Below are positions 8,049 through 28,446 of a DNA stretch of 36,165 bases, piece by piece. Origin of the DNA: Verrucomicrobiota bacterium. Lineage in GTDB: Bacteria > Auribacterota > JABMQX01 > JAFGEW01. The stretch spans positions 1-36,165 of the forward strand of contig JAFGEW010000020.1 of NCBI GenBank assembly GCA_016931415.1, in the 5' to 3' direction. How positions within the stretch are numbered: the stretch's first letter is position 1; every line of letters begins with the position of its first letter. The position numbers and the translations under genes are program-made. The notes beneath the pieces were generated by a model that had not been told where the DNA came from, did no database searches, and saw only the letters and a list, made by a program, of their open reading frames with translations.

Positions 8049-10817
8049 CTACATCAGTTCGTCCGGAACGGAGATCTCTTCCGCCTCGGCTTCCTCACGC
8101 TCTTTCCGGAACTGGTCCAGGTATCTTTTGTGCTGCTCGGTAATCTCGCGCTCCTGGCGCAGGCGCGTGCCGCGCGAGGTAATGAGCTCGGCCGTGACGA
8201 AGATCATCAGGTTCGACTTCTTCTCGAGCTCGTAGGTGGAGCGGAAGAGCCGGCCCACCACGGGGATGCTGCCGAGGAAGGGCACCCGATCCTGCACGAG
8301 CGCGGTGTTGCTCTCGATGATGCCGCCGAGCACGAGCGTCTCGCCGTCGTTGATGTAGACGGTGGTCGTGACGTTCCGCGTCTTGAACACCGGCTGGCGC
8401 GCCGGGTTGATCGGGGTGCCGTAGTCGATCCACTCGAGGAGCTCGCTCACCTCGGGCAGCAGCACGAGCGTGATCACCTCGCCGTTGGCCGACACCGTCG
8501 GCGTCACGTTGAGCCGGATGCCGACCTCGCGGGTTTCAAACGAGCTCGGAGTCACGAAGAACGCCTGGAAGTCCGCGGGCACCTGCCACACGTCGCCGAT
8601 CGTCTCAGTCTCGTACTCGGTCGGGTAGCGGATCTCGTCGACCACCTGGATGAGCGCCTGGTTGCCGCTGATCGTGGTGACGCGCGGCGCGTTGAGCAGC
8701 TCGGTGTACTTGGTCTGCTCCAGGGCATTCCAGATGAACGCGAACTCCGGCTGCGTCAGGATGCCGCTGATGCTGAGCAACGCGCTCGCGCCTGAGGTGT
8801 CCGGGTTGACGCGCAGCATGCCTTCCCCTGGCTGTTGCAGGTTGCCGCCCAGAGCCAGCATCTCGATGCGCTGGCGGCTGGTGAGCGGCAAGGTGCCGAA
8901 GTTGGACTGCGAGTGGCGCGTCCAGCGCAGGGCGTCGGTCATGGCAATCCGGAACGAGTTCTCGAAGTTCCGGTCCATGAGCACGTCGGCAAATCGTGCC
9001 TCGATCTCGACCTGCATGGGCGGCTGATCCCAGATCTTGATCAGCTCGCGGATCATCACCATGTTGGTCGGCGTGTTGCGCACGATGAGCGTCGCCGTCG
9101 GCTGGTGGAACACGATGTCGCTGCCTGGAGGCCAGCTCACGCCACCGGCACGCCGGAGGAACTCCTCGATGCTCTCTGCCTGGCCGGTACCGGCGCCGGC
9201 GCCCGAGTCGGAGAAGCCGGGGCCATACCCGCCACCGCCGCCGCCGCCACCGAAGGTGCCGCCGCCCGTCCCGGTGGCGTCCGCCCCGAACCCGGTCGGT
9301 GCCGACGTGATCGTCGAGGCGCCGAAGCCGCTCGTGGAGAGCCGGAAGATCTCCGTCTCAAAGTCCTCAGGCAAAGCGTAGTCGATCGGGATGATGAGGA
9401 TCGCGTAATCCTCGACCACGTACTTCAGGCTCTTGTACCGCAGCACGTAGCGGAGCACGAACTTGAGCGGCACGTTCTCGAGCTTGATCGTGATCGTGCT
9501 CATCTGCGGGGCCGCGTATGTCGTGGTCATCGACGGCACATCGCCGAACCCGGTGCCCGTGCCAGGGAAGCCGCCGCTTGGGCCAGGGAAACCGCCGCTT
9601 GGACCCGAAGGGAAACCACCACCAGCACTTCCACCGCGGCGAGGATCAGTTGCAGGAGTCAGTGGCTGCATCGAGCCCTGGGGCGCGAATTCCCCTGTTG
9701 GTGTCGTTGTGTCCTCCCCGGGGAAGACTGGGCCGGTGTCCTCCGCGGGCCACTCGGGTCCGATCTCGACTGGGAACCCGGAGGCGGGTGGCGCCGCCGG
9801 CCCCATGCCCGTGCTCGTGCCGAGCACGACGGGATCGATGACGATGTTCACCTTGGCCTCGGCAGCCAGGTAGTTGATGACCTCTCGCAACTCGGCGTCT
9901 TTGAAGTCCACCTTCGGGATGATCGTCTCGAGCTTCTTGAGGATGAGGGCCCGCGCTTCGGACGGTTTGTCCTCGTCGGGGACGATGATGTCGATCGCCT
10001 GAAGGTGCGCGCGACGCGGCCGGACCTGCCACACCTCATCGACCTGGGTGAGCATCTCGCGGCGGATCGGCTCGCGGGCGGCCCGGTTGTAGAGGTACAT
10101 CTGGTAGTTGACCCGCTCGAGCCAGCGCAAGACCTCGACATTGTAGGGGTTGACCTCGCGCGCGTTGAGGAGCATGTCCTTGGCCAGGTCGTAGTCCTTC
10201 TTGCGGAACGCGTCGATCGCCTTGGTCAGCAGCTCGGCGTCGCCCAGCTCGACCATGTCCGGGGTCTCGATGACGATCTTCTCCAGGTCGTCGCCGTCCT
10301 CCTCCTCTTCGGGTTCGGTGCCCTGGAGCTCGACGGCCGTGTCGCGGAAGCTCATCACGTTCTTGACGTCAAGGTCTTCCTGATCGTTGAAGCGGCCCAG
10401 GAAGTCGTCGGCTTGGCGGATGGCCTCCGTGTACCGCTTCGTCCTGAGCAACTCGTAGACATAGGCCTTCTGAGTCGTTTTCAGCTTCGAGAGCGCCTCC
10501 TCGTCGTCGGGCACGAGCTCGAGCGCGCGCTTGAGCTTGCTCACGGCGAGATCGTAGTCGCTCGGCTGTTGCTGTATTGCCGCCTCGGCCTCGAGCTTGG
10601 CGTTCTCGGCCTCCACCTGCGCTTGGAGCGCTTTCTCCGTCTCGAAGTCGGCGGCCACCTCATCGGCAGTCAGGTCCTCCTCCCCCACCATCCCGTCATC
10701 GCCTACAACCGTGAACTCATCGGTCTCACCGAGGTCCTGGCCGTAGGCGGGGATCAGGATGCAGGACAGGGACAAGACGAACGCGAGCACAGCAAGCCAT
10801 CGCAACGTCTTTCCCAT
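8049..10817 (-). CDS. gspD: Secretin with N-terminal helical repeats and a split STN domain (GspD/PilQ family)
   Basis: Outer-membrane secretins form the gated channel of type II secretion and type IV pili. This 922-residue protein starts with a signal peptide (cleavage likely after AYG, residue 26), then helical TPR-like repeats (about 60-280). An STN/N0 domain comes in two pieces: PKVDFKDAELREVINYL (301-317) and ITIKLENVPLKFVLRYVL (442-459), separated by about 110 Gly/Pro/Thr-rich residues. A second Gly-rich stretch (495-545) precedes an N1-like domain (SDIVFHQPTATLIVRNTP). The secretin barrel spans about 690-880 and ends in the signature VPFLGSIPVVGRLFRS (845-860). The tail is charged and coiled. 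The ATG at 10815-10817 follows AAGGAGA. It is the last gene of the pilM unit; a hairpin follows. No lipobox is seen. Confidence 0.93.
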   Translation of the reverse strand: MGKTLRWLAVLAFVLSLSCILIPAYGQDLGETDEFTVVGDDGMVGEEDLTADEVAADFETEKALQAQVEAENAKLEAEAAIQQQPSDYDLAVSKLKRALELVPDDEEALSKLKTTQKAYVYELLRTKRYTEAIRQADDFLGRFNDQEDLDVKNVMSFRDTAVELQGTEPEEEEDGDDLEKIVIETPDMVELGDAELLTKAIDAFRKKDYDLAKDMLLNAREVNPYNVEVLRWLERVNYQMYLYNRAAREPIRREMLTQVDEVWQVRPRRAHLQAIDIIVPDEDKPSEARALILKKLETIIPKVDFKDAELREVINYLAAEAKVNIVIDPVVLGTSTGMGPAAPPASGFPVEIGPEWPAEDTGPVFPGEDTTTPTGEFAPQGSMQPLTPATDPRRGGSAGGGFPSGPSGGFPGPSGGFPGTGTGFGDVPSMTTTYAAPQMSTITIKLENVPLKFVLRYVLRYKSLKYVVEDYAILIIPIDYALPEDFETEIFRLSTSGFGASTITSAPTGFGADATGTGGGTFGGGGGGGGYGPGFSDSGAGAGTGQAESIEEFLRRAGGVSWPPGSDIVFHQPTATLIVRNTPTNMVMIRELIKIWDQPPMQVEIEARFADVLMDRNFENSFRIAMTDALRWTRHSQSNFGTLPLTSRQRIEMLALGGNLQQPGEGMLRVNPDTSGASALLSISGILTQPEFAFIWNALEQTKYTELLNAPRVTTISGNQALIQVVDEIRYPTEYETETIGDVWQVPADFQAFFVTPSSFETREVGIRLNVTPTVSANGEVITLVLLPEVSELLEWIDYGTPINPARQPVFKTRNVTTTVYINDGETLVLGGIIESNTALVQDRVPFLGSIPVVGRLFRSTYELEKKSNLMIFVTAELITSRGTRLRQEREITEQHKRYLDQFRKEREEAEAEEISVPDELM

Positions 10818-10962: not shown

Positions 10963-11832
10963 CTAGAAGCCGGTCTGATCGGTGCCGTCCGCTCCAAGGC
11001 GGCGTGCCCCGACGATCCCGGTGGCCAGACGGAACACCTCCGTGTCCATGTCCTCGTCCGGCTCCCAGCCGATGGGGACGATGAGCACGGCGTATTCCTC
11101 GACCACGTACTTGAGCCCCTTGTAGCGGAGCACGTATCGCAAGACTTCCCTGAGGGGAACATTTGTCAGGTGAATGGTGATAAGGTCCCGGCGCGGCTCG
11201 GTTGGTGCAGCGAATCCAGCGAAGCCGGACGTCTCGTCTACGAACGCCTCGTCCGCAGGCGGCTCGACGCCCGGCTCCTTCCCGTCAGGCCTGCCGGGGA
11301 CCTGCGTCCCGGCAACGAGCGGCGGCCCGGTGGGTGTCGGCCCTGCGGCCGCGAGGACCTGGAGCGCCTCAGCGTGGAAGACGATGTTCACCCCGGCTTC
11401 CTGACCCAGGTACTCGACGACTTCGCGCAGCTCGGCGTCCCTGAAGCTGACCTTGGGGACGCGCGCTTCCAGCTTCTCCTTCATGCGCTCGGTCTCGGTG
11501 ATGCCGAGGACCTTGTCGACCTGTGCCAGGGCGGCCTTTGCCCGAACGTGCCCCGGGTCGAGCTTGAGCACGGCGCGGAGCTTGGCGCGGGCCAGCCCCA
11601 GCTTGCCGGCCGTCTGGGCCTCGAGGCCCTCGACGTACATCGCGCCGGCCAACTGCTTGACGTCGTCGGACGAGACGGCGCTCCGGGCCGGTGCGGCTTC
11701 TTTGGCTGCCGCCTCAGTGTCCGGCGGCGGGTCGGTGGCGGGCGTTGACGCCCAGGTCCCGGCGGCGCAAAGCGCTGCAACCGCCAGGACGGCTGTCAGA
11801 GCGGGTGCGAGGGTGCGGATGGTCGCGCTCAT
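10963..11832 (-). CDS. Secretin N0 (STN)-only protein, truncated paralogue of the neighbouring secretin
   Basis: A 289-residue exported protein that matches the N-terminal half of the secretin downstream but has no pore domain. It has a signal peptide (MSATIRTLAPALTAVLAVAALCAAG, cleavage probably after TWA), a TPR-like segment (about 56-112) and the same split STN: PKVSFRDAELREVVEYL (126-142), a Pro-rich insert (160-215), then ITIHLTNVPLREVLRYVL (218-235). It stops about 30 residues after the STN domain, just where the secretin enters its Gly-rich linker. The stop looks natural: the 145-bp spacer to the secretin shows no continuation of homology, and both genes have their own AAGGAG ribosome sites. 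Possible roles are a periplasmic adaptor or pilotin-like partner of the secretin N-domains. Function unknown; family assignment firm. Confidence 0.85.
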   Translation of the reverse strand: MSATIRTLAPALTAVLAVAALCAAGTWASTPATDPPPDTEAAAKEAAPARSAVSSDDVKQLAGAMYVEGLEAQTAGKLGLARAKLRAVLKLDPGHVRAKAALAQVDKVLGITETERMKEKLEARVPKVSFRDAELREVVEYLGQEAGVNIVFHAEALQVLAAAGPTPTGPPLVAGTQVPGRPDGKEPGVEPPADEAFVDETSGFAGFAAPTEPRRDLITIHLTNVPLREVLRYVLRYKGLKYVVEEYAVLIVPIGWEPDEDMDTEVFRLATGIVGARRLGADGTDQTGF

Positions 11833-11887: not shown

Positions 11888-12940
11888 CTACTCTGAAAGC
11901 GTGTACGTATTGCCTTCACTGTCTTTGAGTACGACCCGGAAAGGCTTCGCGCCGTCCGGGCCGTCACTGACCGCGTCGTGCACCTCGGCGACCTCGAACC
12001 TCTCGCCGTTGGCCGAGAGGAATTCGCCGATGGTGAGCCCATCGAAGTTCTTGCCGGTATCCCGGCCCTGGGTGACCGTCAGGTCGATGTAGGTCTCATT
12101 TGTGGTAGCCCAGTTATTCTGGACGAGTTGGATCGGCTGCTGGCCAGGGCGCTGGATGGTGAGCACGTAGACGTCGACGAAGTAGGCGGGGATGCCGCCG
12201 CCCGGGTCGACCTTTCTCTGCCTCTTCTGGAGCGGCCAGAGCTTGTAGCCCTTGTAGGAACCGCCCAGCGGAATGATGGTTGTCTCGCTGCCGCGCCCGT
12301 AGTTCATCTGGAGATCCCAAGTGTCAGGGTCGATCACGTTCGCATCGCCGCCGGCCTTGATGATGTAGCCGAAGAAGCGAACCTCGATCTGCTTGCGGTA
12401 GCTCTGCACCAGGCGGAACGGGCTGGGGATCGAGTACTTGTCGGTCGGGTCCGAGCCGCCGAGGTACTCCTTGATGTTGCTGAATCCGTCGCCATCGGGG
12501 TCATCGTTGGCGCCGTAGTCGAGCGTGCTGAAATGGCGCATCTCCCAGTCGTCAGGCAGCCCGTCCTTGTCGAGGTCAGTCTCCGGCATATGTCCGCAGT
12601 TGGGGCAGCGCTTCACCGAGGCTTTGACGATCCAGGCGCACTTGGGGCACACCCTTTCGCCGGCGCGCGCATAGATCTCGTCAGGATCGGAGGCGAACCC
12701 GCCGGTGACGTAGTCCTCGGGGATGCCGCCCAGGACGACCCTGGCGTGGACCTTGTCCACATAGTTGCTCACGTCCGTCTCGGGCGCCTTGTACGGAGGC
12801 AGTGTCAGAGGGCCTCCGGTCTCGGGGGCCTTGCCGTTGAGCAGCGTTACGGCCGCCACCCCAATCAGGACGACAAGGAACAAGCCGAACAACACCTTGT
12901 CGCCGTACTGGATCAGCTTCTTTTTCAGGTCATCCGCCAT
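11888..12940 (-). CDS. Membrane-anchored zinc-knuckle/TSP3 calcium-repeat protein (second of a tandem pair)
   Basis: A 350-residue protein with one transmembrane helix (about 17-35), a likely periplasmic CPKC (98-101) and CPNC (112-115) pair typical of a zinc ribbon, then an Asp-rich TSP type-3/EF-like segment (DLDKDGLPDDWEMRH ... DDPDGDGFSNIKEYLGGSDP, 122-165). The C-terminal beta-rich domain ends in GEFLSANGERFEV and VVLKDSEGNTYTL. Those last phrases recall the PilP/GspC homology-region fold, and the gene lies between pilO and the secretin, where pilP is normally found. I infer that it links the inner-membrane platform to the secretin. It is paralogous to the gene upstream, 6 bp away, and its AAGGTGA ribosome site overlaps that gene's stop. 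No close named family is recognised. Confidence 0.7.
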   Translation of the reverse strand: MADDLKKKLIQYGDKVLFGLFLVVLIGVAAVTLLNGKAPETGGPLTLPPYKAPETDVSNYVDKVHARVVLGGIPEDYVTGGFASDPDEIYARAGERVCPKCAWIVKASVKRCPNCGHMPETDLDKDGLPDDWEMRHFSTLDYGANDDPDGDGFSNIKEYLGGSDPTDKYSIPSPFRLVQSYRKQIEVRFFGYIIKAGGDANVIDPDTWDLQMNYGRGSETTIIPLGGSYKGYKLWPLQKRQRKVDPGGGIPAYFVDVYVLTIQRPGQQPIQLVQNNWATTNETYIDLTVTQGRDTGKNFDGLTIGEFLSANGERFEVAEVHDAVSDGPDGAKPFRVVLKDSEGNTYTLSE

Positions 12941-12946
12941 GTGCCG

Positions 12947-13933
12947 TCACCTTGGTCGCTCTTCGGGTCTCAGTTCCAGGTTGTACTTCTCGCCGCGATC
13001 GCCAGTCAAGCGCGCGCCATGAGGGGAGACCTCGTTCACAAGGTACGAGTGCTCACCGATTCGAATGGTCTCGCCCGCATAGGCGCGCTTCCTCGATCCC
13101 GTGCCGTCGACGGAGAGAAAGACACCGTAGCTCTCCGGCTCGCGCACGGGCTCGTGGCGCGGCAATTTCAACTCGGCCCCATCCGGTCGCTTGAGGACGA
13201 GTGTGTATTCAGTCTGGGCAACGTGTCTGTTGGCAACGCGTTTGAGGACCACGCGCTCGTCGAGCCGCTCGATCGTGTAGCCGCGGAACGTCTGGCCGAT
13301 ATCGAGGATCTCGGTGGCCCGATCGTTGCCCCAATTGATCTGGATGGCCGTGGCGCCGCTGCGCCGCGTGGCGAAGCCGCGGAACAGGGCGTCGACGAAT
13401 TCCTGGTCGACGGCGACGAGCCGGACAGGCCCCGGGATCGACTGGGGGTCGTCCGGGTCCGAGCCACCGCGGTACTCCTCGATGTTGGTGAACCGGTCGC
13501 CGTCGTAGTCCAGGTCGGCATCGGCCACGTCCGGGTTGGTCGCCCTGTAACGCTGCTCCCACTCGTCGGTCATGCCGTCGCGGTCGCGGTCGTGCTGGTC
13601 AATGCCGCAGACGGGGCAGTAGCGCATCGAGTCGGGCATGATGCAGGTGCAGGTGGGGCCGATGCAGGAGTGCTCGCCGGGCCGGGGCAGGTACTCGTCG
13701 GGGTCGGTGGCGAGGTCGACGGCGATGCTCGGCAGCTTGTGGTCGCCCAGGTTGGGGAACGCGATGCCCGCGGTGCGGAAGTCGCCGTGGGGCTCGCGGG
13801 GCCCTTCCCGGGACGGGGTACTGCTGGTCCAGAACCAGACGACCGCCAAGGCACACACCAGCATTGCAGCGCCGAAGGCCACCTTATCGGCGTGCCACAG
13901 CAGGCGGTGTGTTTTCAGCGGCCGCATCGTCAT
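12947..13933 (-). CDS. Membrane-anchored cysteine-cluster/TSP3 calcium-repeat protein (first of a tandem pair)
   Basis: A 328-residue paralogue of the next gene with the same layout: a TM helix (about 18-36), a cysteine cluster (Cys90, 95, 97, 106, 109; last pair CPVC), a calcium-type segment DRDRDGMTDEWEQRY ... DLDYDGDRFTNIEEYRGGSDPDD (115-162), and a beta-rich C-terminal domain ending with GETIRIGEHSYLVNEVSP and GEKYNLEL. The odd fifth cysteine makes the metal site less canonical than in its partner. The ATG at 13931-13933 was chosen because CAGGAAC precedes it and it places the TM helix near the N-terminus; a frame open to 14044 only adds arginine-rich shadow sequence from within pilO. The role as a PilP-like connector is inferred from position and the shared C-terminal domain. 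Confidence 0.68.
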   Translation of the reverse strand: MTMRPLKTHRLLWHADKVAFGAAMLVCALAVVWFWTSSTPSREGPREPHGDFRTAGIAFPNLGDHKLPSIAVDLATDPDEYLPRPGEHSCIGPTCTCIMPDSMRYCPVCGIDQHDRDRDGMTDEWEQRYRATNPDVADADLDYDGDRFTNIEEYRGGSDPDDPQSIPGPVRLVAVDQEFVDALFRGFATRRSGATAIQINWGNDRATEILDIGQTFRGYTIERLDERVVLKRVANRHVAQTEYTLVLKRPDGAELKLPRHEPVREPESYGVFLSVDGTGSRKRAYAGETIRIGEHSYLVNEVSPHGARLTGDRGEKYNLELRPEERPR

Positions 13934-13976: not shown

Positions 13977-15101
13977 TCACTGCGTCGCGGCCGTCCGGGC
14001 GGCCGTTCCAGTCTTCTTTTCTTCCTCGACGGGCAGCTTGCCACGGATGCCCTCGCCGAAGTCCACCATCGAGATCGTCATCGTGACGTTCAGGATGTTG
14101 TACAGCGGCTCGCGGGCGTCTTTGTGTTGCACTGTCGCCCTCGCCGGGCCGCCACCGGTTGTCGTGGCGCCACTGGGTGTCGTGGCGCCGGGATTCCTGC
14201 GCCTTCTGGGATCCGTGTTCGGGGGGGCCATCGAACCCGAGCCGCCGAGTTGGTGGCTCGAATCGGGGATCGGCCGGCCGCCGTGCATGATGGTCGTCGT
14301 CGTGGTGGTGCCCGTCGTGGTGGTCGCCGGAGTGCCGGCGGCCGCGAGGCGGGCCATCTTGAGATCATCGGCCTCGTACGAGATCTGCTCGATCACCAGG
14401 TAGTTGCGCGGCAGCTCGTACCGGTCGCTCTTCTCATTCTTGTCGCCCTTGAGGACGACCGGTGTCCTGGAGGGATTGACCAGGTCGGCCTGGAACTTGG
14501 CGAGCTGGGGGTACTTGCACGTGAAGCTCACGTTGAGAAGGTACTTATTGTAGAGCTTGCCGCCCTTCTCCGGGCCGATCCAATTGATGGCGTTGACCGA
14601 TTGGACCTTGTTCTGGATCAGCAGCAGAATGATGTCGCGCATGATCGACTTCTGCTTGAGCATGTCGAAGGTCACCTCGGTGGGCGGCACGCTGGTCTGC
14701 AGCTCGGGGAAGCCCATGAGCGGCACGTTAGCATCGAGCACCACGCCGCTCTCGATGGCGAACAGGGTGATGCGGCGCCTCAGCTCCTGGAGGTTGCCCA
14801 GGAAGATGCCCGGGGTGCGGTCTTCCTCATAGACGCCCGCATCCCACCACGTGCACATCAACTCCTTGAGCTTGTCGTAGGCCTGTTCGGTATCGGCGAG
14901 CTCCTTCTTGGCGTACTCGAGGTGCTCGGCGTTCGGGTTCATCTTCCTGAGGTTGTCGAGCTCCTCTTCCGCCTGCGCGTCGTCCTGCTTGACCTTGTTC
15001 CAGCCCGAGTAGCCGCGCTGCACGAAGACGGCGACCACGACGAAAACCACGCCGATGGCGGCCACGCCGATCACGAATGGAAGGTTTCGTCTCAGATTCA
15101 T
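13977..15101 (-). CDS. pilO: PilO-like inner-membrane assembly protein
   Basis: A 374-residue bitopic protein: a short cytoplasmic start, a TM helix at about 9-27, then a coiled coil (AQAEEELDNLRKMNP ... KKELADTEQAYDKLKEL, 42-82) and an alpha/beta periplasmic domain. This is the PilO layout, enlarged. A Thr/Gly/Pro-rich low-complexity insert (about 257-325, including a run of threonines) interrupts the C-terminal domain before ILNVTMTISMVDFGEG. PilO pairs with PilN and holds the PilM ring below the secretin. The gene follows the pilM-pilN fusion by 17 bp, which supports the call. A similarly enlarged PilO-like protein occurs in the Akkermansia pilus-type locus (Amuc_1100); resemblance is by layout and context, not alignment. 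The stop falls 43 bp before the next gene's start. Confidence 0.75.
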   Translation of the reverse strand: MNLRRNLPFVIGVAAIGVVFVVVAVFVQRGYSGWNKVKQDDAQAEEELDNLRKMNPNAEHLEYAKKELADTEQAYDKLKELMCTWWDAGVYEEDRTPGIFLGNLQELRRRITLFAIESGVVLDANVPLMGFPELQTSVPPTEVTFDMLKQKSIMRDIILLLIQNKVQSVNAINWIGPEKGGKLYNKYLLNVSFTCKYPQLAKFQADLVNPSRTPVVLKGDKNEKSDRYELPRNYLVIEQISYEADDLKMARLAAAGTPATTTTGTTTTTTIMHGGRPIPDSSHQLGGSGSMAPPNTDPRRRRNPGATTPSGATTTGGGPARATVQHKDAREPLYNILNVTMTISMVDFGEGIRGKLPVEEEKKTGTAARTAATQ

Positions 15102-15118: not shown

Positions 15119-16969
15119 TTAGAACTCGAACGGAACCTCGACGTCGGCCGTCAACGTAAACTTGGCCAGCGGCTCGCCGAGCACCTTAAACGGGTCGTCA
15201 ATCGGCTCCTGGCTCACGAGCGTCACGTTGCCGAAGAGCTTCTTTGTTTTTGCAGGATCCTTTGGGTCGGGCACCTCGATGCTCTCGAGCTCCTGCTTGA
15301 GCTTCTCGATCTCCCTGGCGCGCGCGCTCTCGGAGGTGGCGCCCTGTTGCGTGAGCTTGAGGTAGCCGGTCAGGGAGAGGCTGGTCTTGCCCTTGCCCTT
15401 TGGGCTGGACGAGGCCGTCGAGCTCGGGACTCTCGCCGACGAACGCATGCGGGCGCTTGGCGGACCGTAGGAGCCGGGGGGCTGGTGGCCCATCGAGCCC
15501 ATGCTGTCCGAGGGCATGCTGGAGACGACCGTCGCGCGGGTATTCGAGCCTCGCGTCGGGGCCTGCATGCCTTCGATCTGGATGCGCGTGAACCAGGCGT
15601 TGCGCGGCTTCTTGTCCTTGATGATCTCGATGAAATCGACCCAGTAGAGACGCGCCGCCTGCATCTTCTCGATTTCTTTGACCTGTGCCTCGATGGTCGT
15701 CTTCTTGCTCTCGTGTTGTTTGATCTGGTTGGCCGTCTGGCTCCACTTTTCGAGCACTTCCTGCTTGCCGGTCAGCTCGTTCTCCAGGGCCTGGGTGTTG
15801 CTCCTGGCGTTGAGGCCGAGCATCGCCATGGCGCCGACGAGGCAGGCGGCCGCGCCGACGATGAACACCTTCTTCTTCGACAGCTCGCGCTGGTAGACGA
15901 TGGCCTTCGGCAGCAGGTTGGTGTGCAGCATGCCCTGGCCCGCCGCGCGCAAGCCGAGCCCGACCACGTCGCCGAGCAGCCGGCCCTGGGCGCGGACCGC
16001 CTCCTTGTCGACGCGCGGGCCGACTTTCACCCGCGCCACGGACGAGAGCGGAGCCACGTCGACGTTGAGTTTCTCGGCCAGGAACGTTTCGATGTTCTTG
16101 ATCGAGGAGCCGCCGCCCGAGAGCAGCACGCGCTGCACGGGGGTGCCCTGCGACTGGGAGCGGTAGTAGCCGATCGAGCGCCGGATCTCGGCGAGCAGCC
16201 GGTTGAGCACCTTGGCCGCCGCCTCGCCGGCCCGGCTGAGCCGCTCGTCGCCCAGCGTGGCGCCGACCTGGATCAGCCGCTTGAGCTTGTCGGCCTCTTC
16301 CGGGGTCGTGTCGAGTTCCTGGGCGATCGCCTGGCTGATGTTCTCGCCGCCGATCGGGATGGCGCGCGACCACAGGTTGATGCCCTCGGCGATGATCAGG
16401 TTGGTCGTGCGCGCGCCCAGGTCCACGAGCGCCGTCGAAGTCTCGAACGGCCCCTCGTTGTAGACCATCGCGTTGTAGAGCGACAGCGACGAGACGTCGA
16501 CGGTCTCGACCTCGATGTGCTGGGCGCGGATCGCCTCGACCAGGCCGGAGACGACCTCGGTCTTCATCGCCACGAGCACGATGTCGATCTCCTCGGCCGA
16601 GCGGTCGCCGATGACCTGGTGGTCCCACTCGACCTCCTCGATCGGGAAGGGCACCTGCTGTTGGGCCTCGTAGCGCACGATCTGGGCGATCTTGCTCTCA
16701 TCGACCGCCGGCAGCTTGACGAAGCGCACGAAGACCGACTGGCCCGAGAGCGAGACGTGGATGGACTTGGGCCGCAGCTTGCGCTCCTCGAGCGTGAAGC
16801 GGATCGTTTGGGCGATCGTGCTGTTGCGCTCCTCGATCGAGGTGTCCGGCGGGATGCCCAGATTGACGACCGCGAAGTCATCAAGCTGCAGCGAGCCGTT
16901 GTCGGCCGCAAACACGGCCATCTTCAGCGCGTCCGAGCCGATGTCGAAGCAGACGAGTGACTTGCTCAT
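15119..16969 (-). CDS. pilM: PilM-PilN fusion protein
   Basis: A 616-residue protein joining two pilus-assembly parts that are usually separate. Residues 1-350 are PilM, an actin-like ATP-binding protein: FDIGSDALKMAVF (phosphate 1), KLPAVDE, VRYEAQQQVPFPIEEVEWD, LVDLGARTTNLII (phosphate 2) and VLLSGGGSSI. NLLP at 351-354 is the motif where free PilN proteins begin and contact PilM. A TM helix (about 367-386), a coiled coil (395-440) and a ferredoxin-like periplasmic part with a Ser/Gly/Pro-rich insert (470-527) follow. The fusion fixes a 1:1 PilM:PilN ratio across the membrane and recalls GspL. It is the first gene of its unit, with a long leader upstream; the ATG at 16967-16969 follows GAGGAACC. 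Confidence 0.88.
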   Translation of the reverse strand: MSKSLVCFDIGSDALKMAVFAADNGSLQLDDFAVVNLGIPPDTSIEERNSTIAQTIRFTLEERKLRPKSIHVSLSGQSVFVRFVKLPAVDESKIAQIVRYEAQQQVPFPIEEVEWDHQVIGDRSAEEIDIVLVAMKTEVVSGLVEAIRAQHIEVETVDVSSLSLYNAMVYNEGPFETSTALVDLGARTTNLIIAEGINLWSRAIPIGGENISQAIAQELDTTPEEADKLKRLIQVGATLGDERLSRAGEAAAKVLNRLLAEIRRSIGYYRSQSQGTPVQRVLLSGGGSSIKNIETFLAEKLNVDVAPLSSVARVKVGPRVDKEAVRAQGRLLGDVVGLGLRAAGQGMLHTNLLPKAIVYQRELSKKKVFIVGAAACLVGAMAMLGLNARSNTQALENELTGKQEVLEKWSQTANQIKQHESKKTTIEAQVKEIEKMQAARLYWVDFIEIIKDKKPRNAWFTRIQIEGMQAPTRGSNTRATVVSSMPSDSMGSMGHQPPGSYGPPSARMRSSARVPSSTASSSPKGKGKTSLSLTGYLKLTQQGATSESARAREIEKLKQELESIEVPDPKDPAKTKKLFGNVTLVSQEPIDDPFKVLGEPLAKFTLTADVEVPFEF

Positions 16970-17716: not shown

Positions 17717-20146
17717 CTATTCGGCCGTGAGCCACCGCATGGACTTGATGCGGATCTGGGCGGCGCCCGTGGTGGGGTTGATGATGCGCTGGACGCTGGC
17801 CTGGAGCCACCGCTCGCCGCGCTTGTCCACCTCGCCCTGGCGGCCCAGCGCCTGGGCGCGCACGGTGACGCGGAACATGTTCGAGCGCACGGTGACCAGC
17901 CCGGCGATGTCGGAGAGCACTTTCTCGCGTTCCCAAGTCGTGGCGCCCGTGCTCATGGGCAGGAACTCGCCAAGCTCGCCGATGCTTTCTATGACGCGAC
18001 CCATCATCCCTGAACTCGGGTGGGTGGCGTTGTACAGGGCGTTGGCGTCAATGCCCCTGCTGTTCGCGGTGTCCTCGAGGCCGCTCAACACTTCCTCAGG
18101 CGCCGTGTTCACGTTGATCAGGCCGACACGGTCCGCGCCGTTCCTGGCTGCGGTGAAGGCATCGTACACACTGAGCCACGTCGCCTGCGTGTGGGCACTC
18201 TCCCAGGTACCACTGAGATCGTCGCCCGTCAGGTTGATGGTCGCCCACGGCTGGCCGATGTGGACTCTGCCCAAGAGGCCAACGGCGCCGAGCTTCCCAT
18301 CATAGATGGCAAACAGGTCCGGGAGGAGCCCGTTGGCATCTTTGTCGCCGGAGTCGCCGGGCTTGCACACCGAGTTCCTGCCGCCGGTGTTCCCGTCGCC
18401 GGCCTCTGTCCAGATGGGGAGGCGTGGATCATCCTTCTGGGCCGTCGCGGGGCCCTCCCCCGAGTCAATGCTGCTGTCGGTCACCTCGATCGTGCTGCCG
18501 TCAGTCGTCGTGATCGTGATCGTCTTGCTGCCATCGAGGTGCAGGTTCCTGTATTCCTGGCACTTGCCGAGCGGCCGCTCGCTGATGTTTGCGAGGTAGT
18601 ACGTTGTGACGGCTCCTGTATCCGGATCGGTGTAATTGTACCAACCGCTCGTATCGCCGATGACATAGTATCCTTCCTGGCCTATCTGATCGCCGGTGCG
18701 TGCGGGCACCTTGACGTCGAACGAGACCGGAAGGTACTCCCCGTTGTGGCCTTGCTGGTGGATGTGGACCGTCACCGTGAGCTCCGTGTCGTACGGGTTG
18801 ATCAGCTCGATGAACTCGCCGTGGTCATGGATCTGGTAGCTCATGTAGTTGTACAACTCGGGCGAGGTCTCGACTTCGTTGAGGTAGGCGGTCTTCTCGA
18901 GGCCGTGCTTGCCCCCGAGCGCGGTCGGCTCGCTGTCCTCGTCGATCTGGTCGGCGATGTTGGCGGCGATCTGGGCAAGAAGGGCGTCGCCATCTGCGTC
19001 CTTGGCCACGGGAAGCCTGTCGGCCTGTCGAAGGACGTCAAGTTCGTCGAAGATCTGTTGCACGGTCGCCTCATTGAGCGAGAGCTTCGTTCGCCACTCG
19101 GTGTAATCGTTGTCCGGCTCGACCGGATAAACGGCCTGTGTGTGCGAATTGACCGTGAGGTAGGCGAGCAGCTTGTTGTACTTCTCGAGCTTAGCGGGGT
19201 CTGTGCCATCGCCTCTGTATGCGCGGATGGCGTCGGCGAGCAGGATGGTCGAGAGGTCGCTGAAGACAAGGTCGTCGCCCTTGATGCTGAGCGGGTCGTA
19301 CTCGTCGGGCTCATCAAGGCCGTCGCCGTCTTCGTCAACAGTGCCGTCGAGGTCGTCGTCGCAGTACGGGAAGCCGAGGGGGCCGTCGTTGTCGTCGTCC
19401 ACGCCGGCCGCGCCGGGCTTGTTGTCGGGGCCGTGGCGCAGGTCGATGATCTGCGCGGCCTCGGTGTCGCCGAGCGAGCTGTTGATCTTGTTCAGGCAGA
19501 CGTTGAAGAGGAACTCGGCGGGGCTCAGGCCATCCATCAGGATATAGTTCGTGCTGCCGGCGACGTTGACGTTCACCTTGCCGCACTCGTCCTCAACGAT
19601 GACGGCGAAGCGGCCGATCAGGCGGTTGCCGTCGTGGATGGGGATCCAGCGCGCGTCGTAGCTCTGGGCGCCGCTACCGGTGCCGAACAGAGGCGAGAGG
19701 TCCACCTCGTTCGGGTTGCCGCTGAGGAGCAGGTCGTCATTGTTCGCGTAGCCTCGCCCCGAGTCCCTGGCCCGCGGGCCCCAGATGTCGTAGTTGGTGT
19801 CGTAGGCCAGGGCGAGGCCGTTGGCCGCATCGTCTCTGTCGCGTGCGAGCAGTTCCATGGCCCAGTTGAGGCCGCTTTCGGCGATGGCCTCGGCCGAGCG
19901 GGCGTAGCGGGCGTTGTCGGCGCCCTCGCGTTCGAGCGACTGGCTCGAGTAGAACGACACGGCGAGGATGGCCATGAGGACGAGGACGGCGAGCGCCATG
20001 AGGAGCGCCACGCCGCGCTCATTGGCCGAAAAACAGGGGCAGTCACCCCTTTTTGGGCGCGGGCCGTTCTGCTTGCTCTGGCGTTGGCTGGGCAAACAGG
20101 CGCCTGTCCCTCTTTTCCTCCCAGCGGTTGAGGTTGTGTGCTTCAT
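17717..20146 (-). CDS. gspK: Oversized minor pseudopilin GspK
   Basis: GspK caps the tip of the type II pseudopilus. The 809-residue product is about two and a half times the usual length. It has a prepilin site NERG^VALLMALAVLVLMAILAV (cleavage after Gly45); position +5 is not Glu, as normal for GspK. The leader is 45 residues, far longer than usual, and contains sequence from a palindromic repeat. GRFAVIVEDECGKVNVN (178-194), LSLNEATVQQIF and GLINVNTAPEEVL are typical GspK pieces. An Asp-rich stretch (250-284, DDDNDG ... DEDGDGLDEPDEYDP) looks calcium-binding. A large central insertion includes a beta-rich domain (EFIELINPYDTELTV). The ATG at 20144-20146 is the only plausible start: a frame open to 20347 lacks a ribosome site, and no start codon in frame lies between the repeat and the cleavage site. 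Last gene of the unit. Confidence 0.88.
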   Translation of the reverse strand: MKHTTSTAGRKRGTGACLPSQRQSKQNGPRPKRGDCPCFSANERGVALLMALAVLVLMAILAVSFYSSQSLEREGADNARYARSAEAIAESGLNWAMELLARDRDDAANGLALAYDTNYDIWGPRARDSGRGYANNDDLLLSGNPNEVDLSPLFGTGSGAQSYDARWIPIHDGNRLIGRFAVIVEDECGKVNVNVAGSTNYILMDGLSPAEFLFNVCLNKINSSLGDTEAAQIIDLRHGPDNKPGAAGVDDDNDGPLGFPYCDDDLDGTVDEDGDGLDEPDEYDPLSIKGDDLVFSDLSTILLADAIRAYRGDGTDPAKLEKYNKLLAYLTVNSHTQAVYPVEPDNDYTEWRTKLSLNEATVQQIFDELDVLRQADRLPVAKDADGDALLAQIAANIADQIDEDSEPTALGGKHGLEKTAYLNEVETSPELYNYMSYQIHDHGEFIELINPYDTELTVTVHIHQQGHNGEYLPVSFDVKVPARTGDQIGQEGYYVIGDTSGWYNYTDPDTGAVTTYYLANISERPLGKCQEYRNLHLDGSKTITITTTDGSTIEVTDSSIDSGEGPATAQKDDPRLPIWTEAGDGNTGGRNSVCKPGDSGDKDANGLLPDLFAIYDGKLGAVGLLGRVHIGQPWATINLTGDDLSGTWESAHTQATWLSVYDAFTAARNGADRVGLINVNTAPEEVLSGLEDTANSRGIDANALYNATHPSSGMMGRVIESIGELGEFLPMSTGATTWEREKVLSDIAGLVTVRSNMFRVTVRAQALGRQGEVDKRGERWLQASVQRIINPTTGAAQIRIKSMRWLTAE
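20031..20107. repeat. REP-like palindromic pair inside the gspK leader codons
   Basis: Two short palindromes lie 45 bp apart within gspK. At 20035-20050, AGGGG-CAGTCA-CCCCT is flanked by A-runs and T-runs that extend the stem past one bulged C. At 20096-20107, ACAGGCGCCTGT is a perfect 12-bp palindrome next to GGGAC. GGGAC/GTCCC palindromes of this kind are typical of REP elements mobilised by RAYT transposases. The element is translated as part of the prepilin leader. Its repeat nature is inference, since other genomic copies cannot be seen. Confidence 0.4.
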
Positions 20147-20362
20147 CACGTGCGAGCCTTTCTCATCCGGTTGCCTGTTGGTTTTGCGCTCTATGGGCCG
20201 GATGATGTGTGCCGCTTCGGCCCGACGGGCCTCCACCGGCACTTCTATAATCCGAGTTATGATTGCGTTTTCGGAACGTTCTCCTTCCCCGTGTTCCCCG
20301 TGGCGGGTTCTCGCTCTTTCTCGAGCCACGGGCCACGCAGGGGGCACGAGGGCTCTCTTCTC

Positions 20363-21109
20363 TCAGTTCGCGTTGTTCAGGCGCACGACGGTTGTGAACG
20401 CCTTGTCCTTGTTGTTCTTCTTGGTGACCGGGTCGAGCTTGGGGTCGGTCGGATCGGCCACGACGAGTGTGATGCGCACGGCCTGCGGCAGTACATTCGT
20501 GGGTGTCCACGTAGTAGTGCTCCACTCCTTCTTGTCGCCGTCCCAATACTCGAACGTGAGCGAGCGTACCAGGACGCCGAGTTGCTTGCTGTTGTTGGCG
20601 TCGTTGATGTCGGTGGGGTAGAGGGCTGCCCAGTCGGGGTGCGCATCGGTCAGGCAGTAGCGCATCAGGAGATCGGGTGTCTCATCATCGCCGTCTACAT
20701 CGTCGAGCCAGTAGCCGATAACGGCCAGATCCTGCTTGGAGGCCAAGGCATCGCGCATACCGGTGGGCGCGACGAAGAATACCTTGTCCGGGTCATCGCC
20801 CCAGAATCCAGCGAGCCCAGGGACGCCCGCGATCGACAGGGGCACCAGGCGCGCCTGGCGCAGTTCGTTGGCCATCAGGCCGAGGGCCTCGCGGGCGGCG
20901 ATGTACTGGCGCGTGTGGGCGATGGTCTTCGAGTACATGTCGCTCGACTGGCGGAACATGGTGAAGATCGCCGCGCCCATGATGGTCAGGATCGTCATCG
21001 CCACGAGCACCTCGAGCAGCGTGAATCCTGCTCCGCGCCTCGCGCCACGCAGGACGCGTTCGCGGCGCCGGGCCGCTGGGTTCGTTCCTGTGTCTGCTCT
21101 CTGTCGCAT
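20363..21109 (-). CDS. gspJ: Minor pseudopilin GspJ
   Basis: GspJ joins GspI and GspK in the tip complex of the pseudopilus. The 248-residue product has a 28-residue, arginine-rich leader and the prepilin site GAG^FTLLEVLVAMTILTIMGAAIF with Glu at +5. The region around 75-100 (REALGLMANELRQARLVPLSIAG) is typical of GspJ. The ATG at 21107-21109 was chosen over an in-frame GTG three bases upstream because GGAG lies 8 nt before it. It sits between gspI and gspK in the usual order H-I-J-K. The 216-bp spacer to gspK carries a small GGCCC/GGGCC hairpin at 20219-20231 and no gene. Confidence 0.85.
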   Translation of the reverse strand: MRQRADTGTNPAARRRERVLRGARRGAGFTLLEVLVAMTILTIMGAAIFTMFRQSSDMYSKTIAHTRQYIAAREALGLMANELRQARLVPLSIAGVPGLAGFWGDDPDKVFFVAPTGMRDALASKQDLAVIGYWLDDVDGDDETPDLLMRYCLTDAHPDWAALYPTDINDANNSKQLGVLVRSLTFEYWDGDKKEWSTTTWTPTNVLPQAVRITLVVADPTDPKLDPVTKKNNKDKAFTTVVRLNNAN

Positions 21110-21129
21110 CACTTCATCTCCATCCGTTA

Positions 21130-21158
21130 GCCGGCTGTCGCCGGCCGTTCGTCGGCCG
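21130..21158. repeat. Overlapping GC hairpins in the gspI-gspJ spacer
   Basis: Two stems share bases and exclude each other: GCCGGC-TGTC-GCCGGC (21130-21145) and CGGCCG-TTCGT-CGGCCG (21142-21158). Each arm is itself palindromic, so both strands can fold. The 61-bp spacer has no room for a gene. A transcript-processing or REP-like origin is possible. Confidence 0.4.
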
Positions 21159-21173
21159 CAAGGCGCACGTGCC

Positions 21174-21866
21174 CTAGGGCCGTATGAACGTGACGAATGT
21201 CATCGTGTTCTGCCTGGCGCGCTGGTCCTCGGTGGTCGCGCGCGGCCAGCGGACGGTGACAGTCACCTGCATGAGGCTCTCGCCGCCGCTCGGCAGGTCA
21301 AAGGCGTTGTTGGGCATGACGCTGCCGCCGGACGTAACGGTGAGGACCTTGTCGAACTTGAGCGTCACCTCGTAGCGCGAGTACATGTCCGTGTCCGTCA
21401 AGCTGCCCGAGCTCTGCTTGACAATCTTCTCGCCGGTGCCGTAGGCGTCGCCGTCGGGGGGATTGACGGTCGCGTCGAAGGTGTGGGACGTGCCCCCGTG
21501 TGTGTAGTTGTCCCAGTCGAGCGTCGTGAGAGCCGCCGCCGTCGTACTGCCGGGCGTGATCTCGCCCTGGCGGAGGCGGACCTGTTCGATAACGTACTCG
21601 CCGAGGATGGCGCCGGTGGTGTAGTTGGCGGCCTGCTCGCTCTGCTTGAGTCCCGTGGGGAACAGGGCGAGGATGCCGACGATGCCGATGCCCATGATGC
21701 CGAGGGCGGCGACGACCTCGATGAGCGTCAGGCCACGCTTGCCCAAGGGTCTCTTCGGAGCGATCCGGCGTGGAGCACGGGCCTCCTGCCCATGGTCACC
21801 GGTTCGCTCAGCGAAGCAGGGGCTGGAGTCCCGCGCTCTCCTGTCTGTTGTCTGTATGCTTATCAT
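21174..21866 (-). CDS. gspI: Minor pseudopilin GspI (PilV-like)
   Basis: A 230-residue prepilin with the cleavage site GKRG^LTLIEVVAALGIMGIGIVGILALFP: Leu at +1 in place of Phe or Met, and Glu at +5. The following GLKQSEQAANYTTGAILGEYVIEQVR matches the GspI/PilV helix that leads into a small beta domain. The leader is 45 residues, and its codons include a CATGGGC-AGGAG-GCCCGTG hairpin. The start ATG at 21864-21866 follows AAGGGAGA. GspI starts tip-complex assembly with GspJ and GspK. Position between gspH and gspJ fits. The 230-residue length exceeds the usual 120-130, mainly from the leader and loops in the C-terminal domain. Confidence 0.82.
   Translation of the reverse strand: MISIQTTDRRARDSSPCFAERTGDHGQEARAPRRIAPKRPLGKRGLTLIEVVAALGIMGIGIVGILALFPTGLKQSEQAANYTTGAILGEYVIEQVRLRQGEITPGSTTAAALTTLDWDNYTHGGTSHTFDATVNPPDGDAYGTGEKIVKQSSGSLTDTDMYSRYEVTLKFDKVLTVTSGGSVMPNNAFDLPSGGESLMQVTVTVRWPRATTEDQRARQNTMTFVTFIRP
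21776..21794. repeat. Short palindrome in the gspI leader codons
   Basis: On the minus strand CATGGGC pairs with GCCCGTG (7 bp with one G-T pair) around AGGAG. The surrounding phrase (GGGCAGGAGGCCCGTGCTCC) resembles dispersed palindromes I associate with planctomycete-like genomes. That link is from memory and unverified. Confidence 0.3.
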
Positions 21867-21890
21867 GGCTTCTCCCTTTCGAGATGCCTG

Positions 21891-22469
21891 CTAGTTGTCC
21901 TTGACCTGCGAGTGGCCTGTGAGCGGCACGACGGAGATCTCTTGTTCCTTGCCGCTGTCGGTATCGTGGATCTTGAAAGTCAGCAGGCCTCCGCCGAACG
22001 CCTCGGCCCGGCCCGTCGGCTTGAAGTCGAGTCCGTTGCTGGGCGGCAGGTCGCCCGGAATGGTCTCGCTGTTGCCGAACTCGATGCCTTGCGGAAGGTC
22101 AACGGGCTGGCGCACCTTCTCCACCGGGCCTGTTGAGGGCCTGTAGTAGATGTAGATCTGGTCCGGCGTGCCGACATTGGGGAGGAACCAGACGCCATAG
22201 ACGCCTTGTCGCGTCATGGCGAGTTCGCGGGCGCCGGCGAGGTGCTGCTGGATGACGCGGGCGGCGGTCCTGAGGCGCACGCTGCGGCCGAAGGCGTTGA
22301 AGCCGAGGATGGCGACGGTCAACAGGATGCCGACCACGGCGATGACGGCGAGCATCTCGACAAGCGTAAACGCCCTCCGGCTGCTCGAGCCGAGAAACAG
22401 CGGGCGGCGTCGAGACGGCACGATGCCCGGGGCTCGCGGGCGCGTTGTCTGTGTGCGTGTGTTCATCAT
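21891..22469 (-). CDS. gspH: Minor pseudopilin GspH
   Basis: A 192-residue prepilin. The cleavage site is SSRRA^FTLVEMLAVIAVVGILLTVAI, with Ala instead of Gly at -1, which prepilin peptidases tolerate but use less often. Glu is at +5. The mature part (AARVIQQHLAGARELAMTRQGVYGVWFLP) is the classic GspH/FimT helix and first strand. The 33-residue leader is long. The ATG at 22467-22469 follows CAGGGTGCC; a second ATG three bases on is equally possible, and a TTG at 22481 directly after the gspG stop is less likely. GspH links the tip complex to the major pseudopilin. It starts 12 bp after the GspG-like gene. Confidence 0.85.
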   Translation of the reverse strand: MMNTRTQTTRPRAPGIVPSRRRPLFLGSSSRRAFTLVEMLAVIAVVGILLTVAILGFNAFGRSVRLRTAARVIQQHLAGARELAMTRQGVYGVWFLPNVGTPDQIYIYYRPSTGPVEKVRQPVDLPQGIEFGNSETIPGDLPPSNGLDFKPTGRAEAFGGGLLTFKIHDTDSGKEQEISVVPLTGHSQVKDN

Positions 22470-22481
22470 GGCACCCTGCAA

Positions 22482-23132
22482 CTACCAGTTGCCGATGTTG
22501 TCGCGGTTATTAGCTGCGTTCTTGTATGCCGTGCGCTTGAGTTCGTAGGTGCTCTGCGACTGGAAGGCCCTCATATCCTCACTGCCGTCCTCGTCTGGCC
22601 CCAAGGACCAGATGTCCCAGCGGTCAATGTTGAAGATCGGCTTGTCGGTCCCCCCGTCCGCGTCCTTGAACTGGAAGTAGATCGGGTTCCCCCACATGTC
22701 CAGCATGGCGTTCTTGTAGCTCTCGGTCTCGTCAGTGTTCTTGCAGTCGCCGAGCATCTTGGGGTCGGGCTCGATGTAGGGACCGCCTCCCCAAAGTGGG
22801 TTGCTACGCACGGCGTTGGCTCCCGTGTCGTCCGGGTCGCCGTTGTCCTTGAGGCCCGTGAGCCAGAGACGGATCCACTCCTTGTCATTGGTCGTTTCGC
22901 CGGCGGTCAGAGAATCGTACGGCGGATGACCGAAGTCGCTCTTGAACATGGTCAGCGCCGCGTCGATCTGGCCGACGAAGCTCCTGGTGTTGACGATCTT
23001 GGCGCGTTGCTGGCTCGACGTGACGGCCCCGAAGATGAGGCCGGCCAGGATGCCGATGACGGCGATGACGACGAGGAGCTCGACGAGCGTGAAGCCCGCG
23101 GGCGCCGTGCGATGTCGCGTGTTGTGTTTCAT
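22482..23132 (-). CDS. gspG: GspG-like (major) pseudopilin
   Basis: A 216-residue prepilin with a 13-residue leader, APAG^FTLVELLVVIAVIGILAGLIFGAV and Glu at +5. GspG traits follow: QIDAALTMFKSDFGHPP in the helix, DMWGNPIYFQF, and a C-terminal DIWSLGPDEDG ... NRDNIGNW, the calcium-binding loop and end of GspG. It is longer than the usual 140 residues because of a loop around 75-150. The start ATG follows GAGGAGAGGACTC. Of the two adjacent GspG-like genes this has the shortest, most typical leader, so it may be the major subunit; that is inference. It follows the first GspG-like gene by 15 bp. Confidence 0.88.
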   Translation of the reverse strand: MKHNTRHRTAPAGFTLVELLVVIAVIGILAGLIFGAVTSSQQRAKIVNTRSFVGQIDAALTMFKSDFGHPPYDSLTAGETTNDKEWIRLWLTGLKDNGDPDDTGANAVRSNPLWGGGPYIEPDPKMLGDCKNTDETESYKNAMLDMWGNPIYFQFKDADGGTDKPIFNIDRWDIWSLGPDEDGSEDMRAFQSQSTYELKRTAYKNAANNRDNIGNW

Positions 23133-23147
23133 GAGTCCTCTCCTCGA

Positions 23148-23933
23148 TCACTGGATCGTGAAGTTGCCGATATTGTCGCGATTGACGTATTTGCCGCCCG
23201 ACGATGTTGCGTCCCGGTCGTTATAGGGATTGACCACAAAGCGGTCCGGTCCCCGCGAGATGAGGTCGTAAGTCTCCGTGTTGACCAGGGGTTGGGCACC
23301 GTCGTGGCCGCTGGCGTTGTACTGGATGGGCACGCCCCAGGGGTCAACGATCTCGGGGAACATGTCGTCGCGAGTGGCCGGGTCGTTGTTCTCTTTGAGA
23401 TCGTTCGTATTCAGAAAGACGACGCCGGTGCGTCTCAGCTCCTTCTGGCTGAAGTTGACATAGGCGCTCTTCTGCTCCATGTCGGCGAGGTCCGTGTTCT
23501 CGGCGTCCTCGTAGACGCCGGCCAGGAAGTACCACAGGATCTCGGCGCCCGTGTTGAGGTTGGCGAAGGAACCGTAGCTGGAGCTGTCCGGCATGGGGAA
23601 CCAGTGGTCCGGGGGATCCCCAGTGCCGCTGTCAATGGAGTCCCAGCCGGCTGTGGGGATGCGGTGGGGCGGATACTTGCCATAGTCGGTGTGGAAGGCG
23701 TCGATGCCGGTCTGGAGTTTGAGGAAGAGCGCCTTGGTTGCGGTGACCGTCGCCTTGCGGTTGGCGTAGACGAGGCCGCCGATGACGGCGGCTGCCAGGA
23801 TGGCGATGATGGTCATGACGGCGATCATCTCGACGAGGGTGAATCCTGCTCTTCGCCGGGTCGTGCGGTGCCGATGTGGGCGGCTTGGGGCCATGGCAGA
23901 GCCATAGCCCTTGTCTGGGAAGGCTGCGTTCAT
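23148..23933 (-). CDS. Second GspG-like pseudopilin
   Basis: A 261-residue prepilin: leader of 30 residues (or 17 if the ATG at 23894 is used), RRRAG^FTLVEMIAVMTIIAILAAAVIGGL and Glu at +5. LKLQTGIDAFHTDYGKYPP, IVDPWGVPIQYNAS, YDLISRGPDRF and the end NRDNIGNFTIQ mirror GspG, so it and the next gene are paralogues. Unlike the other copy it has a longer middle loop (ILWYFLAGVYEDAEN ... GVVFLNTNDL). The ATG at 23931-23933 follows AAGGACGG. Either copy may be the main fibre subunit; two GspG-type genes suggest two fibres or a mixed one. It is the first pseudopilin gene after gspF. Confidence 0.85.
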   Translation of the reverse strand: MNAAFPDKGYGSAMAPSRPHRHRTTRRRAGFTLVEMIAVMTIIAILAAAVIGGLVYANRKATVTATKALFLKLQTGIDAFHTDYGKYPPHRIPTAGWDSIDSGTGDPPDHWFPMPDSSSYGSFANLNTGAEILWYFLAGVYEDAENTDLADMEQKSAYVNFSQKELRRTGVVFLNTNDLKENNDPATRDDMFPEIVDPWGVPIQYNASGHDGAQPLVNTETYDLISRGPDRFVVNPYNDRDATSSGGKYVNRDNIGNFTIQ

Positions 23934-23961
23934 CTCTTCCGTCCTTTTTTGGCCCCGCCGC

Positions 23962-23982
23962 CGCCGCGGTTCCGCCGCGGCG
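23962..23982 (-). promoter_or_regulatory. 8-bp hairpin between gspF and the first pseudopilin gene
   Basis: CGCCGCGG pairs perfectly with CCGCGGCG around TTCCG in the 75-bp spacer. It sits upstream of an A-run and the ribosome site of the pseudopilin gene. Such hairpins often mark a processing point that lets pseudopilin mRNA outlast the gspF part. No U-tract, so not a typical terminator. Confidence 0.35.
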
Positions 23983-24008
23983 CATTGCCCGGCGCGGCAC
24001 AGTTGCCC

Positions 24009-25271: not shown

Positions 25272-25413
25272 CGTGATCTCCTTCAGGTCACTCCTGCCCA
25301 TGAGGCCGCCGGCTGGACGGCCGTCGCGCTGCTAGCCTATAGCAGACAGGCTCCTGGAATGCACGCACAAACCCGGCCGTGTTCTGGTTGGATCTACACT
25401 CACGACCGCCACG

Positions 25414-25493
25414 CGCAACCAGCTTCCGCTATGGGTTATGTACTAAGACGTTGATCTGTGCTGGGTTGCGATGGCGTTCCTCGATTGGCCATC
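25414..25493 (-). promoter_or_regulatory. Two-hairpin leader upstream of gspF
   Basis: In the minus-strand transcript GATGGC...GCCATC (25493-25488 with 25475-25470) forms a 6-bp stem with a 12-base loop. Immediately after, CGCAACCCAGC (25470-25460) pairs with GCTGGTTGCG (25423-25414) with one bulged C, enclosing 36 bases. The RNA then runs 142 nt to the gspF start. No known riboswitch motif was recognised; I specifically could not match the cyclic-di-GMP class I core. The 294-bp gap has no gene. Confidence 0.4.
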
Positions 25494-25509
25494 ATGATCT
25501 CTCAGCACT

Positions 25510-25538
25510 TATTTAGCACCGGTCCCCAGGGGCGTCAA
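25510..25538 (-). promoter_or_regulatory. Sigma70-type promoter for the gspF-gspK unit
   Basis: Minus strand: -35 TTGACG (25538-25533), spacer of exactly 17, -10 TAAATA (25515-25510). It lies 28 bp after the upstream ATPase stop codon and would give a leader of about 230 nt. The spacer contains CCCCTGGGG, a 9-bp near-palindrome that could be an operator. Confidence 0.6.
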
Positions 25539-25565
25539 GAGGCAAAAGATTCCGTCTGCACGGGG

Positions 25566-27269: not shown

Positions 27270-27297
27270 GGTCGTTGTTCCTTGTGCCCCGCGGGCG

Positions 27298-28362: not shown

Positions 28363-28446
28363 GGGTCGTGTCTTCCTTCTTTGTGCGGCGCCGGCCGAGA
28401 GGCGGACCAGCCTGCCACCCGGTCGTATCCGCCCTCAGGGACGGGT

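Follow-up and report, generated by a model that had tools for sequence, protein, structure and literature searches.

The operon in our window, by which we mean the whole stretch of 36,165 nucleotides that was analysed, raises the question of what two paralogous membrane-anchored proteins do between a pilO-like gene and a secretin gene, in the slot of PilP or GspC. The relevant features are as follows.

8049..10817, minus strand: outer-membrane secretin of the Amuc_1098 type (NF042912, E=8.5e-96; Pfam Secretin, E=1.4e-38).
10963..11832, minus strand: secreted protein with TPR-like and secretin N0/STN segments (NF042912 positions 249-374, E=8e-15), hereafter the N0-only protein.
11888..12940, minus strand: P0001, Amuc_1099-like connector copy B, 350 aa, with a TM helix (~2-35), a zinc ribbon, EF/TSP3 loops (~122-158), beta domain 1 (~172-275) and beta domain 2 (~277-350).
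12947..13933, minus strand: P0002, Amuc_1099-like connector copy A, 328 aa, with the layout of P0001.
13977..15101, minus strand: PilO-like protein, a weak match to the Amuc_1100 family (NF038287, E=3e-8).
15119..16969, minus strand: PilM-PilN fusion of the Amuc_1101 family (NF045709, E=1.9e-119; Pfam PilM_2, E=5e-41).
17717..30171, minus strand: remaining operon, with a GspK-like protein/Verru_Chthon cassette A, five pilin-like proteins, PilC, PilB/GspE, PilT and a second PilB.

The operon contains PilT and therefore points to a retractable pilus rather than to pure secretion. The gene polA comes after the secretin gene, and matches to Verru_Chthon cassette families A-D occur among the GspK-like protein and the five pilin-like ones. 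Of the two PilB ATPases, one (25566-27269) carries an N-terminal c-di-GMP-binding domain of the MshE type (NF053729, E=2.9e-15). The N0-only protein is probably the remnant of a second secretin, because relatives have two full-length tandem secretins at the same place (loci L041 and L049-L054). Elsewhere in the window genome, on contig 109 (~1759-4065), there are short secretin-like proteins, apparently fragments, outside any pilus operon that we saw. Regarding the other end of the locus, genome G001, of the same class, has between its PilM and GspK genes an ORF for a secreted protein of 224 aa (contig 179, 11457-12131) that may match Amuc_1102; no counterpart ORF was seen in the window.

A previous sequence-only reading of this DNA had described two paralogues with one layout between pilO and the secretin, and both ORFs are indeed real, lie on the minus strand and share 30% identity over 302 aligned positions (E=3e-34). 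The layout it had given (TM helix, cysteine knuckles, an Asp-rich TSP3/EF segment and a C-terminal beta region) was seen in both proteins. Each starts with a basic N-terminus followed by a single TM helix, so that, by the positive-inside rule, the remainder would be periplasmic; no lipobox was found in P0001 or P0002, which have the N-terminal TM helix instead. The zinc-ribbon motif of P0001 is CPKC-x10-CPNC and matches Pfam UPF0547/Zn_ribbon_3 (E ~1e-5), while TSP3_bac matches with E=3e-4, both under the gathering score. Its Asp-rich stretch consists of two canonical 12-residue EF-type loops, DLDKDGLPDDWE and DPDGDGFSNIKE, both with the DxDxDGxxxxxE pattern of bacterial TSP3/EF-loop calcium proteins. 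In P0002, where TSP3 loops are also present, the first knuckle is altered (CIGPTCTC) and accompanied by CPVC. The AlphaFold2 model of P0001 reaches a mean pLDDT of 85.9, and most of each beta domain exceeds 92.

Amuc_1099 comes from the Akkermansia operon that makes Amuc_1100, tied to mucin use. The model of this family (NCBIfam NF042425) matches both copies weakly, with E-values of 2e-7 and 1e-9 and 30.8 and 38.2 bits. These scores are under the curated cut-off of 50 bits, so the window copies are not equivalogs by NCBI's rule. The same model matches 55 of the 70 aligned members of the family, with a best E-value of 6e-68. The neighbouring genes match the Amuc_1098, Amuc_1100 and Amuc_1101 models, and the position between the Amuc_1100 (PilO-like) and Amuc_1098 (secretin) genes is found in the window and kept in relatives. 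From these matches and this position, P0001 and P0002 are divergent members of the Amuc_1099 family. The earlier statement that no described system holds such proteins is not supported, since this operon belongs to the Amuc_1098-1102 type and the family of the connector, Amuc_1099, already has a name. A literature search joining TSP3, zinc ribbon and pili found nothing. The Akkermansia locus was already known (PMC5332112), and Amuc_1099 was still listed as uncharacterised in 2026 (PMC13174399).

How general the arrangement is was read from a locus scan anchored on PilM, and hence without bias toward the connector itself. The scan gave 80 named loci, nearly all from Verrucomicrobiota, Kiritimatiellota and Lentisphaerota, plus Auribacterota/UBP3. 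A connector lies between PilO and the secretin in 74/74 named loci whose contig extends far enough; in the six others the contig ends at most ~1.35 kb from the PilM match. Within the same phylum, each pilus locus that we read has one connector between PilO and the secretin or secretins, often with polA after. Homologues overwhelmingly adjoin pilMNO and secretin genes, in keeping with the place that the sequence-only reading had given to the pair. Orphan family copies also occur away from pilus loci. Genome G007, for instance, carries a second, orphan protein with the TM-ribbon-TSP3-beta layout (contig 6, 7839-8900) and no pilMNO/secretin locus near it. In four genomes (G003, G011, G019 and G026; e.g. 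L022, 1138-2742) the connectors reach 534-535 aa, with a long helical insert in beta domain 1 whose repeated motifs resemble helix-hairpin-helix (GspK/ComEA-like). The median secretin length is 1033 aa in loci with long connectors and 877 aa in those with short ones, a difference confounded by phylogeny and from which we therefore conclude nothing.

The next question is whether the beta domains are related to the homology region (HR) of GspC, a fold of two sheets formed from six successive strands that can be superimposed on PilP (PMC3169554). The predicted strand order of both beta domains is compatible with this fold. Our first HR profile, made from five GspC sequences, was weak, and it was enlarged with five same-phylum GspC sequences plus E. 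coli HofP to a total of 11 GspC/HofP sequences. With hhalign, this profile aligned to beta domain 1 with a score of 23 and a probability of 20%, colinear over most of the HR, and to beta domain 2, also colinearly, with a score of up to 23 and a probability of 19%. When the profile was scanned over the family alignment, the peaks fell on exactly both beta domains (up to 23 and 16). Among 40 secretin and 24 PilM control windows, which are few and not all-beta, the maximum score was 9.1. We relied on these windows from real proteins because some column-shuffled nulls gave aberrant scores of ~128.

A short motif of the (R/L)xF-P type (RDPFSP, RNVF/RNVFTP, RNIF, LFNP, LFVP) was found immediately ahead of the inserts or of the beta region in many relatives, and a similar one stands before the HR in E. 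coli HofP (RDPFKP) and in same-phylum GspC (RNIF). A clear version, common as it is in relatives, is absent from both window copies, which have lost it.

The HR relationship was not borne out by Foldseek. Against the PDB with two confident AlphaFold2 models (pLDDT 85.9 and 87.5), it returned nothing significant and no PilP or GspC among the listed matches, and a sequence profile against the PDB did not find PilP/GspC. Among the 25 commonest Pfam families listed, PilP (PF04351) has no match in the family, and a genome search for it was likewise negative, though its positive control gave no signal either; T2SSC (PF11356) has none in the family or in the window genome, and its matches elsewhere in the phylum are on other contigs, not in connector loci. 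The best weak Foldseek matches were tandem KOW/Tudor barrels, with E=0.009 and above. One could argue from these matches, and from the missing PilP/GspC hits, that the beta domains are another small barrel (KOW/Tudor/SH3-like) without PilP/GspC ancestry, in an accessory protein peculiar to PVC bacteria, for example a pilus anchor that binds peptidoglycan or glycans. We consider this unlikely: the barrel matches are not significant, on both domains the HR profile scores higher than in every control window, place and topology are those of PilP/GspC, and the locus is without any other PilP candidate. The likeness to PilP/GspC that had been noticed at the ends of the beta domains is upheld in part, as the HR profile scores best on the two beta domains but with a probability of ~20% and no significant structural match. 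Homology of both beta domains to the HR is suggested, not proven.

Regarding the metal modules, the sequence-only reading had proposed a metal-gated coupling, in which zinc and calcium binding in the periplasmic linker would switch the link between inner membrane and secretin. The ligands of both modules are kept in the window copies, and 18 of the 70 aligned members combine a four-Cys ribbon with TSP3. However, both modules are absent from 26 members at the same locus, another 25 carry TSP3 but not the ribbon pattern, and one has the ribbon only, counts that rest on motif patterns, so that a stricter or looser pattern moves a few members. The nearest relative, G001, has a single connector with a ribbon and without TSP3. 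Large proteins with TSP3 repeats abound in the same genome (46 matches; one ORF, on contig 325, has 2274 aa). What is constant in the family is a core made of the TM helix, a linker and two small beta domains, often with the (R/L)xF-P motif. As ribbon and TSP3 are gained and lost independently among orthologues at the same locus, they cannot be the conserved mechanism; a shared gate could not be optional. A gate of this kind is therefore very improbable, a conserved role as metal switch is unlikely, and we found no support for metal regulation within the window lineage. With the core constant and the modules optional, the latter are best read as insertions in the connector linker, where the ribbon and the EF/TSP3 loops, presumably metal-bound, would most likely stiffen or lengthen the linker, or add contact surface. 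The family illustrates a connector gaining and losing zinc and calcium modules in its linker.

The pair itself was the other feature to be placed in context. The window genome holds four family copies, the tandem pair and two on contig 40. In the beta-domain tree these four cluster with the one G001 copy in a single clade (97/98), within which P0001 groups with the two contig 40 copies (99/98); P0002 is fast-evolving, with a branch of 2.02, and its position is unsure because this branch is so long. The connector is nearly always single in PVC loci, and the tandem pair is a local, lineage-specific duplication rather than a general arrangement.

On contig 40 (10349-12601, minus strand) a lipoprotein-like ORF of 750 aa fuses PilN-like (E=3e-7), PilO-like (E=9e-34) and Amuc_1099-like (E=2e-57) segments. 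It adjoins a lipoprotein-like 215-aa protein made of the beta domains alone (12780-13427, minus strand), and no secretin was found near this orphan cassette. PilO-PilP fusions exist as well (PMC3169554), and the joining of the three segments in one ORF supports the view that PilN, PilO and the connector are physical partners.

The duplicated copies might have changed role and work as a hetero-pair, with the secretin and the N0-only protein as its two partners. The duplication is confined to the window lineage, P0002 evolves fast, and the N0-only protein is an additional partner within the same operon. G001, however, has an N0-only protein and a single connector, so the pair is not needed for that protein, and we regard a division of labour of this kind as a rather doubtful explanation.

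Taking these results together, we propose that the Amuc_1099 family replaces PilP/GspC in the type IV pilus-like systems of PVC bacteria, linking PilNO to the N0 domain of the secretin, and we give this reading a probability of about 0.68. In its favour are the PilP/GspC slot and topology, the conserved position, the family matches, the motif in many relatives, the PilN-PilO-connector fusion and the fact that the best match of the HR profile in the protein is the beta domains; against it are the hhalign probability of at most ~20%, the lack of a PilP/GspC entry among the listed Foldseek matches, the missing Pfam PilP and T2SSC matches, a TM helix where PilP has a lipid anchor, the orphan copies and the clear motif missing from both window copies. 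Both PilP and GspC attach to the N0 domain of the secretin through pairing at strand edges, and PilN/PilO are further binding partners of PilP (PMC3441751, PMC3169554); it is simplest to suppose that Amuc_1099 proteins act likewise. The single TM helix would fix the connector to the inner membrane next to PilN and PilO, followed by the linker with its (R/L)xF-P type motif. The two tandem HR-like beta domains would then contact N0 of the secretin, and in this operon possibly that of the separate N0-only protein as well, with the ribbon and both EF/TSP3 loops as optional linker inserts. Because the gene is duplicated in tandem in this lineage, the two copies may share one ring side by side or divide the partners (secretin and N0-only protein) between them. 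A bolder version, which we put forward as speculative and improbable as a whole, is that Amuc_1099-type proteins are the long-missing PVC PilP/GspC, built of two tandem HR domains, and here form a metal-braced hetero-oligomeric pair that addresses the secretin and an N0 ring. Our analysis suggests a job, that of PilP/GspC, for a family that had been named but never assigned; the Amuc_1099 family and its locus were already known. If this role is assigned, the PVC pilus machine would be complete, and no PilP was recognised there by the models used here.

By comparing the connector with known systems, its nearest counterpart is the Amuc_1098-1102 (MUL2) locus of Akkermansia muciniphila, which it resembles in sequence and in its place between Amuc_1100 and Amuc_1098 type genes; it differs in that the window copies are below the family cut-off and the gene is duplicated in tandem. 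PilP is a lipoprotein. With PilP of type IVa pili the connector shares the pilM-N-O-P-Q order, a periplasmic linker and, in many relatives, a motif of the (R/L)xF-P type before a small beta domain. It differs from PilP in its TM anchor in place of a lipid, its two beta domains, its metal modules and the missing match to Pfam PilP; the contig 40 copies, unlike those in the window, start with lipoprotein-like signals. With GspC of type II secretion it has in common the N-terminal TM helix, the RNIF-type motif of same-phylum GspC and, probably, the HR-like domain pattern, whereas it has no PDZ domain, carries two HR-like units, and belongs to loci that the T2SSC model does not match.
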